A DNA stretch of 25,063 nucleotides from a virus, in the IMG/VR virus record IMGVR_UViG_3300033153_002968, positions 1 through 25,063 of that record. One strand, given 5' to 3'. The notes under the pieces are model-generated. The model saw only the letters and a program-made list of their open reading frames with translations, was not told the DNA's origin and made no database searches. Positions 327 through 23,940 of the stretch are shown here, piece after piece. Each line of letters starts with the position of its first letter. Position 1 is the stretch's first letter. A program made the position numbers and the translations under genes.

Positions 327-470
327 TTATTTTTTAAACACGTCTATGATTTTATCACCTGACGCATTCACTTTGTCGTACCAACGTGAGAAATGTAACT
401 CGTTGTTGAACGTCTTAGTCTTACATATGTAGCGATTGCCCCGCTTGATTGAGATGTCATACACTATCAT
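327..470 (-). CDS. small phage protein, 47 aa, unknown function
   Basis: I place the start at ATG 470-468, giving a product that begins MIVYDISIKRGNRYIC and ends GDKIIDVFKK. The frame is open upstream to 518, but that longer version would overlap the preceding gene by 52 nt. The 470 start instead overlaps its stop as ATGA. The pattern KxGNRYICKTKTF...HFxxWYxKVxASGDKII resembles small uncharacterised proteins of Bacteroidota phages. No catalytic motif or membrane segment is visible. The promoter for the next transcription unit begins right after its stop. Confidence 0.6.
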   Translation of the reverse strand: MIVYDISIKRGNRYICKTKTFNNELHFSRWYDKVNASGDKIIDVFKK

Positions 471-622
471 GATTCCTTCATTTGCTTGATGTAGAACCAT
501 AGGTATGAACCCTGACACCTCTCGGTGGTGTACTTACTCTCACCTCTGAGAGATTTCTTCAACTCGTTTGACCAAAAGTCAACCTTGTCTTGGTATCCGT
601 TAGAATATGTTCGTCTTGACAT
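467..622 (-). CDS. small phage protein, 51 aa, unknown function
   Basis: The product beginning MSRRTYSNGYQDKVDFW starts at ATG 622-620 behind an A/T-rich leader. In-frame alternatives are ATG 646-644 and GTG 649-647, which would add 8 or 9 residues. It is basic and polar with no recognised domain. It is the first gene after the hammerhead motif at 665-716, so ribozyme cleavage would give it a new 5' end about 89 nt upstream of the chosen start. It is coupled by ATGA to the following 47-aa gene. Confidence 0.5.
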   Translation of the reverse strand: MSRRTYSNGYQDKVDFWSNELKKSLRGESKYTTERCQGSYLWFYIKQMKES

Positions 623-664
623 AATAATTTTGATGGTAGGTAACATCACCCGTTAATTAAATTT

Positions 665-716
665 CCGTTTCGACTCTTTTGAGTCATCATCAGCATCGGC
701 ACACACCGATGGACGG
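665..716 (-). ncRNA. hammerhead ribozyme, type III arrangement
   Basis: All positions are on the minus-strand RNA. Stem III 5' arm is CCG (716-714). The cleavage dinucleotide UC follows (713-712). Stem I is CAUCGG (711-706) paired with CCGAUG (699-694) around a UGUGUG loop. The core CUGAUGA is at 693-687. Stem II is GACUC (685-681) paired with GAGUC (676-672) around an AAAA loop. GAAA is at 671-668, and stem III closes with CGG (667-665). The only departure from consensus is one extra U (686) between the core and stem II. An extra nucleotide at this junction is known in the hammerhead of chrysanthemum chlorotic mottle viroid. Stem III is short (3 bp plus the A-U core pair). Predicted cleavage is after C712. 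Confidence 0.8.
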
Positions 717-717
717 T

Positions 718-745
718 GGAAGTGTGTCCTTGAGGACACACTCCC
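718..745 (-). repeat. dispersed hairpin element, copy 2 (longest minus-strand copy)
   Basis: On the minus strand, 745-734 pairs with 729-718 as a 12-bp stem with a single G-U pair (743/720) around the loop UCAA (733-730). The central nine pairs (721-729 with 734-742) are perfect. It starts 7 nt after the amidoligase stop codon and ends one nucleotide (A717) before the hammerhead at 665-716. It therefore probably caps the 3' end left by ribozyme cleavage. No T-tract follows. Confidence 0.8.
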
Positions 746-752
746 ATTGCGC

Positions 753-1681: not shown

Positions 1682-1697
1682 GTGTCCTTGAAGACAC
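1682..1697 (-). repeat. dispersed hairpin element, copy 3
   Basis: The minus-strand RNA GTGTCTTCAAGGACAC (1697-1682) is identical to copy 1: five Watson-Crick pairs, one U-G pair and a UCAA loop. It begins 2 nt after the stop of the 104-aa gene and ends 14 nt before the amidoligase start codon. It is thus an intercistronic hairpin in a position to set mRNA stability or block initiation. Confidence 0.65.
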
Positions 1698-1699
1698 GA

Positions 1700-2014
1700 T
1701 TAATATACTTTTTGGATTAATATGCAATTTTGATTGATAAAGTTTTCTACGTCACCTTCAGCATACACAATCATAACTGCCGTTACTTTATTGTAGTCAA
1801 CTAAAGAATAGTCGTATGAACTTGTCGTTACGATTTTCTTCATTCCGAATTCGACAACCTCTGACCAATCGATGTTGTGAGTGTCACAGTCAACACGTAC
1901 ATTGTCTTCGGTGACAAGAAGCGCAGTAGTATCGGTAGTGACTAGGATTTCATGAATGTCATCACGCATGAACATCGATGTGATGTCTTTGTTATTAATT
2001 ACTAGTTTTTTCAT
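1700..2014 (-). CDS. hypothetical protein, 104 aa
   Basis: ATG at 2014-2012, TAA at 1702-1700. The product begins MKKLVINNKDITSMF and is acidic, with several beta-prone segments (for example HEILVTTDTTALLV). I recognise no family, membrane segment or catalytic motif. It is the first gene after the type I hammerhead: cleavage after C2040 would leave a 25-nt leader with a 5'-hydroxyl upstream of this start codon. A hairpin element follows its stop immediately. Confidence 0.65.
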   Translation of the reverse strand: MKKLVINNKDITSMFMRDDIHEILVTTDTTALLVTEDNVRVDCDTHNIDWSEVVEFGMKKIVTTSSYDYSLVDYNKVTAVMIVYAEGDVENFINQNCILIQKVY

Positions 2015-2033
2015 AGGTATTAAATTTTAATTT

Positions 2034-2083
2034 GTAATAGACGTCTCACGACGTTTCGACCATTCAGGTCTCATCAGTATTAC
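2034..2083 (-). ncRNA. hammerhead ribozyme, type I arrangement
   Basis: All positions are on the minus-strand RNA. Stem I 5' arm is GUAAUA (2083-2078). The invariant core CUGAUGA is at 2077-2071. Stem II is GACC (2070-2067) paired with GGUC (2061-2058) around UGAAU. GAAA is at 2057-2054. Stem III is CGUC (2053-2050) paired with GACG (2045-2042) closed by the GNRA loop GUGA. The cleavage dinucleotide UC is at 2041-2040, and stem I closes with UAUUAC (2039-2034), a perfect complement of the 5' arm. Every core nucleotide and all three helices of the hammerhead are present. It begins on the last base of the 222-aa gene's TAG stop and ends 19 nt before the 104-aa gene's ATG, so cleavage after C2040 would separate the two messages. 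Confidence 0.93.
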
Positions 2084-2751
2084 TACGCAGTTAATGATGC
2101 ATTGATTAGTGCTAGAACTTGAACTATCTCGTCAACACTGTTACGAGTATGCATTGCACCGTCAACGTCTAAACGGTAAGCTACGTTGTCACCATCAGGA
2201 TTGCGGAAAGCAAGTGTTATCATGGTATTGCTCTCCTCACGTTGTGGAACGTCAGCACCTTCAACGGCAGTCTCAATTGCTTCAGTCAATTGCTCTTCGG
2301 TAGCTTCGTCAGGTAACTCACTAAGGTCAATGTTGCGACCAAATTCGTCGAGACCTGCAATGGTACGCTTGGCTTGGTCACCAAGTTCGTCACACTTGGT
2401 CATGAATGCCGATACGATACGACTGTCTAAGCTACCACATCTACGTACCTTGTGAAAGTATGATTTTTTCCATCCAAAGACCTTTTGACTGAAATCGTCA
2501 ATAGTCCATGATAGACCTTGCTCACGAAATGCTTCTTTGCCTTCGTCACTTGTGAACCATTCATACGATGCTACAACGTGAGTAGCTAGAGTTAAGGAAT
2601 GCTCGAACTTGCGTTTCTGAGCATTGCCGATGTTACGTTGTCCTCTGCGTATGTCGTTAAGGTTCAACGCTGTCTTGATTGCAGGATTGTTTAGGAAATC
2701 CTGTTCGATTGGAAGTAATGTTATATTACTCATTAATGTTATATTACTCAT
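2083..2751 (-). CDS. possible DNA-binding phage protein, 222 aa
   Basis: The first gene after the minus promoter at 2823-2830 begins with a duplicated hexapeptide, MSNITL twice, so ATG 2751 and ATG 2733 are both possible starts. Residues about 30-110 are basic and look helical. The segment WTIDDFSQKVFGWKKSYFHK could be a helix-turn-helix of the kind seen in ParB-like or replication-associated proteins, but I cannot name a family. The middle (about 135-170) is acidic and low-complexity, and the C-terminus from about 175 looks like a separate small beta domain. A role in regulation or replication is inference. The type I hammerhead begins on the last base of its TAG stop. Confidence 0.65.
   Translation of the reverse strand: MSNITLMSNITLLPIEQDFLNNPAIKTALNLNDIRRGQRNIGNAQKRKFEHSLTLATHVVASYEWFTSDEGKEAFREQGLSWTIDDFSQKVFGWKKSYFHKVRRCGSLDSRIVSAFMTKCDELGDQAKRTIAGLDEFGRNIDLSELPDEATEEQLTEAIETAVEGADVPQREESNTMITLAFRNPDGDNVAYRLDVDGAMHTRNSVDEIVQVLALINASLTA
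2716..2751 (-). repeat. 18-bp tandem duplication over a start codon
   Basis: Positions 2716-2733 and 2734-2751 are identical 18-bp copies. Each encodes MSNITL in frame with the 222-aa gene, giving two consecutive ATG starts with the same downstream context. It is probably a recent slippage duplication. Confidence 0.9.
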
Positions 2752-23886: not shown

Positions 23887-23940
23887 AGGTAAGGAGGGGA
23901 GGCGTGTCCTCAAGGACACGTCTCCTACCTTATTTTTTTT
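23887..23940 (+). terminator. intrinsic terminator after capsid gene (hairpin element, copy 6)
   Basis: A 12-bp stem (23898-23909 with 23914-23925, one G-T) closes on loop TCAA; an outer 5-bp helix (AGGTA 23887-23891 with TACCT 23926-23930) follows a 6-nt bulge. A run of eight T (23933-23940) comes after. The stem core is GTGTCC/GGACAC, as in the dispersed hairpin family. It should end the capsid transcript 9 nt after the stop codon. Confidence 0.9.

Follow-up and report, generated by a model that had tools for sequence, protein, structure and literature searches.

What does a hammerhead ribozyme do when it separates two phage genes almost to the base? The question arises from IMG/VR record IMGVR_UViG_3300033153_002968, which was analysed over its entire length of 25,063 nt (the window) and in which a preceding sequence-only reading had pointed out a type I hammerhead with a suspected role in mRNA processing. 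The window encodes GroEL, GroES, an amidase, the large terminase, a portal and one structural protein. It belongs to the genome of a flavobacterial-type podovirus; a flavobacterium is the probable host, which we infer because the terminase is 73% identical to that of MW202828 and 45% identical to those of Flavobacterium elemoviruses. The genes next to the ribozyme, called like all others here by an ORF heuristic, are as follows.

2083..2751, minus strand: gene A, 222 aa, unknown function, kept directly upstream of gene B in relatives
1700..2014, minus strand: 104-aa gene, unknown function, homologs in L144, L141, L178 and L183
753..1667, minus strand: gene B, start ATG at 1667, about 304 aa, member of a conserved family without known function
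467..646, minus strand: small ORF downstream of a second hammerhead (HHR-III, see below)

Relatives of gene B were matched 260 times in viral contigs, of which the best 80 were retained, and genes A and B are adjacent in nearly all of these about 80 relatives. None were found in bacterial genomes, and therefore a prophage host could not be identified. Gene A and the 104-aa protein had no convincing match in Pfam or PHROG. Peptide patterns retrieved no relatives of the 104-aa gene from viral contigs; its four homologs come from ORF BLAST inside the relatives' loci. Farther downstream, a small protein at 327-518 (minus strand) is 87% identical to its counterpart at L055 6000-6146, whereas the GroEL proteins of the two phages are only 57% identical, a contrast suggesting that small genes were probably exchanged recently between them.

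The ribozyme between gene A and the 104-aa gene (HHR-I) reads, on the minus strand from 2083 to 2034, GUAAUA-CUGAUGA-GACC-UGAAU-GGUC-GAAA-CGUC-GUGA-GACG-UC-UAUUAC. Its elements and immediate surroundings are:

2034..2083, minus strand: type I hammerhead ribozyme (HHR-I), supported by sequence, fold, Rfam and phage covariance models
2083-2078/2039-2034, minus strand: stem I, GUAAUA/UAUUAC, 6 bp
2077-2071, minus strand: core CUGAUGA
2070-2067/2061-2058, minus strand: stem II, GACC/GGUC, 4 bp, loop UGAAU
2057-2054, minus strand: GAAA
2054-2050/2045-2041, minus strand: stem III, 5 bp, loop GUGA
2041-2040, minus strand: UC, predicted cut between C2040 and U2039
2084, minus strand: unpaired A directly 5' of stem I and middle base of the TAG stop; 81% of 93 phage type I hammerheads have A here
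2032..2033, minus strand: unpaired AA directly 3' of stem I, positions occupied by A in 76% and 81%, respectively, of such elements in phages
2015..2039, minus strand: predicted 25-nt leader, rich in A and U, with which the downstream message would begin after cleavage

The order of core residues is complete (C3 U4 G5 A6 N7 G8 A9, G12 A13 A14, A15.1-U16.1, H17), and the three helices of 6, 4 and 5 bp have no mismatch, with stems II and III closed and stem I open. Both the minimum free energy and the centroid structure are the hammerhead itself (-12.2 kcal/mol). The initial reading had listed all conserved type I elements, each of which is confirmed in place; of its helix lengths, those of stems I and II held, and that of stem III is corrected from 4 to 5 bp, as the A15.1-U16.1 pair (A2054-U2041) has to be included. 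A covariance model (R1) built from 55 other phage type I hammerheads, with the window and the near-identical L038, L055 and L069 left out, scored HHR-I at 66.2 bits (E 5e-21), the runner-up in the window reaching 9.5 bits; E-values of such home-built models are rough. The full three-stem descriptor had no match in 200 dinucleotide shuffles of the window. A chance match, considered very unlikely from the outset, is rejected on the basis of these shuffles and of the E-values of the phage and Rfam models.

The Rfam result deserves comment. The sequence-only reading had proposed a covariance search with RF00163 and would have taken the lack of a match over threshold as refutation. HHR-I is the sole Rfam match in the window and aligns over the full model (E-value 0.0015 against all 4227 Rfam families, 3.6e-7 in a single-model search), with 29.3 bits at a gathering score of 34, so that the refuting outcome has formally occurred. 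We hold the threshold and not the ribozyme to be at fault, because the gathering scores find one hammerhead only across 11 relatives that hold many. The segment 2083-2034 is thus a real, sequence-intact and canonical type I hammerhead; cleavage itself is not shown.

The first base of HHR-I is also the final base of the gene A stop, TAG (2085-2083), a one-base overlap, and the ribozyme ends 19 nt before the ATG of the 104-aa gene at 2014, both as originally described. All three flanking unpaired As that are common in phage type I hammerheads are present, as is the UNNNU pattern kept in their loop II. It is conceivable that the AA flanking stem I contacts loop II, an inference for which there are no contact data. 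No structure is predicted for 2039-2005 (0.0 kcal/mol).

A second ribozyme, overlooked in the sequence-only reading, follows gene B.

664..717, minus strand: type III hammerhead (HHR-III), found with a covariance model of relatives' type III hammerheads
716-713/668-665, minus strand: stem III
712/711, minus strand: predicted cut between C712 and C711
711-705/700-694, minus strand: stem I, loop GUGU
693-687, minus strand: core CUGAUGA
685-672, minus strand: stem II, GACUC-AAAA-GAGUC
671-668, minus strand: GAAA

The model, built from 34 type III hammerheads of relatives, gave 50 bits (E 3.6e-12). The core and three helices are present, and the open stem III defines the type. Like HHR-I, this element shares core, topology and stems with the Rfam families (RF00163, Hammerhead_1; RF00008, Hammerhead_3), but it is absent from the Rfam matches in the window. 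Only the covariance model detected it, whereas a descriptor scan without core variants missed it. HHR-III fails the requirement for G10.1-C11.1 directly after A9, as an extra U686 lies between A9 and stem II; L158 (5315) has the identical extra U and stem II. A viroid hammerhead with an additional base at this position has been described (De la Pena and Flores 2001; title in PMC6155905), and a U is reportedly tolerated there. We therefore regard HHR-III as a variant type III hammerhead. As a separate observation, U-U or A-A replaces the G10.1-C11.1 pair beside the core in many type III elements from relatives (CUGAUGAUUCCAAAAGGAUGAAAC, CUGAUGAAGCCAAAAGGCAGAAAC; L128 6974, L127 6549, L141 6976, L151 10196, L195 1938 and others), which keep the usual hairpin and spacing.

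HHR-III begins 36 nt past the gene B stop. The 104-aa gene and gene B are thus bracketed by two ribozymes about 1.3 kb apart, and the predicted cuts after 2040 and 712 would free a 1328-nt RNA carrying both genes.

The hairpins of this block, and the copies of a repeated hairpin in the window, are:

717..746, minus strand: 13-bp hairpin with UCAA loop in the gene B 3' UTR, abutting stem III of HHR-III
1682..1697, minus strand: intergenic hairpin GUGUCUUCAAGGACAC, a few nt past the 104-aa stop and before gene B
264-279, 724-739 and 1682-1697, minus-sense: copies of GTGTCYTCAARGACAC
2954-2969 and 23904-23919, plus-sense: copies of GTGTCYTCAARGACAC

The 41-nt 3' UTR that would be left on gene B after cleavage (752-712) folds at -23.7 kcal/mol. 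That a hairpin abuts the ribozyme is a general feature of type III elements: the 32 nt directly 5' of them fold at a mean of -13.3 kcal/mol, compared with -2.1 to -4.5 kcal/mol for sequence behind the remaining stops in these loci (p 3e-38 by Mann-Whitney test, versus gaps of at least 40 nt). All fold energies are predictions. The hairpin is equally strong in relatives (-13.6) and unrelated phages (-13.0), with differing sequences; about half are GUGUCYUCAARGACAC and the rest are unrelated, e.g. GGGGCUUCGGCCCC and GGGGCGAAAGCCCC. No U tract follows the hairpins 5' of type III hammerheads. For the hairpin 746-717, an intrinsic terminator was considered and rejected, there being no U tract, the CCGUC of the ribozyme coming next and a terminator scan making no call.

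In type I elements the hairpin in this position is the ribozyme's own stem III, whose end lies one base ahead of the cut; in L143 and L183 this stem includes the GUGUC hairpin itself. In L047, L198 and L203 we observed a different repeated hairpin, AGTCCGTTnnnnAACGGACT, within type I stem III; each phage apparently builds its own repeat hairpin into the ribozyme. As predicted from structure, in the absence of cleavage data, both topologies would place the cut immediately after a hairpin that the upstream RNA retains.

The GTGTCYTCAARGACAC hairpin recurs behind genes of this phage group (L001 and relatives), with or without a hammerhead. In the window, one copy lies 26 nt past the structural protein gene (stop 23878), and a sixth (16799) falls within the terminase gene. 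Since the same hairpins stand alone behind many genes, the hairpin does not need the ribozyme; it is likely an RNA 3'-end or stability element.

To see the position of the ribozymes relative to codons, we used 227 non-redundant phage hammerheads (129 type I, 98 type III), with gene ends from the ORF heuristic. For type I, the upstream stop ends between -10 and +2 of stem I in 83 of 129 cases (4.4% for randomly shifted positions), and an ATG opening an ORF follows 10-35 nt downstream in 85 of 129 (15% expected). The median distance from stop to cut is 44 nt (43 in the window) and from cut to ATG 25 nt, as in the window. For type III, the stop lies 20-40 nt upstream and mostly clear of the ribozyme; here the medians are 37 nt from stop to cut (window 41) and 67 nt from cut to ATG (quartiles 65-71; window 65). 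The cut-behind-hairpin layout accounts for why stops are spaced differently in type I and type III. The exact fit between two cistrons noted at the outset is thus not peculiar to this locus, as the stop lies in the stated range in 83 of the 129 type I elements. The most frequent type I stop offsets are -6, -1, 0 and -10, and in many cases the stop falls inside stem I or the core. These modes may mark the places where bases required by the ribozyme double as a stop codon; by inference, these would be the A at -1, a UAA in stem I and the UGA in CUGAUGA.

Compensatory changes show that the hammerhead structure is under selection in both types. Among 55 phage type I hammerheads, both partners vary in 12 of 15 pairs (score 0.815 versus 0.149 shuffled); for type III, they do so in 11 of 17 (0.668 versus 0.210). 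Sliding the pairing partners abolishes the signal in both alignments. Pairing in these alignments is inflated by the scan itself, which accepted only stems with 4 or more contiguous pairs. A pattern restricted to the core and stem II matched phage contigs 118 times, and 110 of these matches also had stems I and III, which occurred with shuffled flanks in 24 of 2500 cases (~1%).

Across 86 related loci, 0.99 Mb in all, there were 146 matches to the type III model and 38 to the type I model, including a few cross-matches of the same elements. Hammerheads are restricted to the sense strand: all model matches in these loci and in 24 whole records lie on the strand of gene B, and the descriptor gave 114 sense and no antisense matches. 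The counts from the scan of viral contigs represent a sample rather than a census. The site after gene B is conserved: of 63 loci that are less than 90% alike (gene B median identity 51%), 51 have a type III hammerhead no more than 80 nt past the gene, at a median of 34 nt from the gene B stop (35 in the window). After gene A the situation varies. A type I element in the same -1 register as in the window directly follows gene A in L143, L198 and L203, and a type III element is found there in L153, L164, L190 and L191. The closest relative, L124, has the gene B ribozyme but lacks both the 104-aa gene and a type I hammerhead after gene A; L144 has the gene order of the window (A, 104-aa gene, B) but no hammerhead after gene A. 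Conservation of HHR-I itself is therefore not borne out, and because of these two loci it is, individually, not essential to this type of phage.

Two cultured phages were also seen to carry one hammerhead each in an unannotated stretch: Cellulophaga phage phi18:3 a type I element (NC_021794 21904-21958, minus strand) and Flavobacterium phage elemoA a type III element (MT497017 19084-19138, minus strand). Independently of this, Cellulophaga phage Calle_1, whose terminase is related, has an annotated RtcB RNA ligase (NC_062744 49463-50866).

The best reading of these data, and in our view a likely one, is mRNA punctuation by a system of this phage group to which both ribozymes belong, i.e. the formation of hairpin-capped 3' ends without terminating transcription, together with a defined downstream leader; an mRNA-processing role, as initially suggested, is thus the best-supported interpretation, though without cleavage data. 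HHR-I would cut the leftward early transcript after C2040, between gene A and the 104-aa gene, and HHR-III after C712, the two cuts together releasing the two-gene RNA. Cutting would be co-transcriptional, with transcription continuing past the cut, and would take place 37-44 nt (medians) behind the stop codon, directly behind a stable hairpin, which is the ribozyme's own stem III in type I and a separate abutting hairpin in type III. The upstream message would then end in the hairpin and a 2',3'-cyclic phosphate, and the downstream message would begin with a 5'-OH and a leader of fixed length. The hairpin may shield the upstream 3' end from exonucleases, giving neighbouring early messages separate amounts or lifetimes. 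Cleavage in infection, 3'-end protection and separate amounts or lifetimes are inferred, as we have no RNA, 5'-OH or cyclic-phosphate data; the data themselves establish sequence and structure, covariation, strand, codon register, the abutting hairpins and conservation behind gene B. Besides the missing RNA evidence, the reading is weakened by the absence of HHR-I from L124 and L144, by the additional U in HHR-III, by the hairpins that occur without any ribozyme and by the heuristic gene calls.

Among the alternatives, an insulated cassette is a lesser possibility, compatible with punctuation. Here HHR-I and the small gene behind it would have entered together between gene A and the hairpin that precedes gene B, and self-cleavage, serving mainly this downstream gene, would free its leader from upstream sequence, as engineered ribozyme insulators do. 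This fits the order A-hairpin-B in L124 compared with A-[HHR-I and 104-aa gene]-hairpin-B in the window, the unstructured 25-nt leader left after the cut, the tight cut-to-ATG distances, and the occurrence of A-HHR-I-small gene-B also in L198 and L203. Against it, the 104-aa homolog of L144 occupies the corresponding site with no hammerhead beside it, HHR-I separates A from B in L143 in the absence of any small gene, and the upstream hairpin of type III elements is left unexplained. We consider it unlikely that cleavage is gated by translation, with a terminating ribosome masking the type I ribozyme such that cutting would be inhibited, or held back until the upstream gene has been translated. 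Stops within stem I or the core of many type I elements would agree with this, but type III stops are mostly clear of the ribozyme, the register modes may merely reflect bases doubling as stops in a compact genome, and at -1 or 0 only the ribosome footprint could interfere.

Still less probable is a selfish or relic element, carried by mobile DNA or decayed, without any role in mRNA processing. Type I elements are patchy at the gene A site, and eukaryotic mobile elements commonly carry hammerheads (PMC7761336); however, the core is intact, the pairs covary, the elements occur on the sense strand only and in fixed register, they persist after gene B in 51/63 diverged loci, and neither a repeat nor a gene for mobility came to notice there. 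Equally remote is ligation of the doubly cut RNA, with its 5'-OH and 2',3'-cyclic phosphate, into a circular or spliced RNA. Two sense-strand hammerheads do bracket the 104-aa gene and gene B, and such ends are RtcB substrates, but an RtcB gene was found in none of 25 records (that of the window and 24 whole relatives; host ligases were outside the search), and circular or spliced products were sought by Perreault et al. without any being found (PMC3088659). Circularisation by a phage-encoded RtcB is accordingly rejected.

The window ribozymes are new members of a published kind, a precedent that the sequence-only reading, like the hairpin element, had not taken into account. Perreault et al. 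(2011) described clustered hammerheads flanking prophage genes and proposed transcript processing; three sets of these tandem prophage hammerheads cleave in vitro and one in E. coli (PMC3088659). In both cases the ribozymes lie between phage genes, several per region, and are thought to cut long transcripts into gene-length mRNAs. That paper mentions neither stop codons nor terminators and reports no abutting hairpin or fixed register; the phages studied here differ in being a lytic-type flavobacterial group in which the hammerhead at one gene site is conserved throughout the family. Gut phages have theta ribozymes (PMC10879173), which are likewise small, self-cleaving and involved in forming phage RNA 3' ends, some of them in phages of Bacteroidota, but have an HDV-like fold and cut at tRNA 3' ends, not in mRNA. 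RiboJ synthetic insulators combine an engineered hammerhead with a hairpin to standardise the 5' leader; their hairpin is 3' of the ribozyme, whereas here it is 5'. In the open-licence literature searched, we found no paper on hammerheads in Flavobacterium phages and no report of the layout rule, the abutting hairpin or the family-wide conservation after gene B, which does not prove that these are unpublished.

Nearly all hammerheads in these phages escape the Rfam gathering thresholds, and therefore public annotation undercounts them. In a bolder reading, which we favour by a narrow margin and only as a whole, phages of several groups would use hammerheads for transcription-independent 3'-end formation, the fixed order of hairpin and cut behind the stop would divide one long transcript into separate hairpin-capped messages for every early gene or pair of genes, and the two topologies would be two solutions to one layout problem, type I leaving its own hairpins on the upstream message and type III borrowing a separate one. 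The function of hammerheads in phages and bacteria has been described as an open question in the field (PMC6155905). The layout rule of stop, hairpin, cut and fixed leader turns it into a specific, testable proposal, namely that hairpin-capped mRNA 3' ends would be made during ongoing transcription, and cultured phages with such elements (phi18:3 for type I, elemoA for type III) make testing practical.
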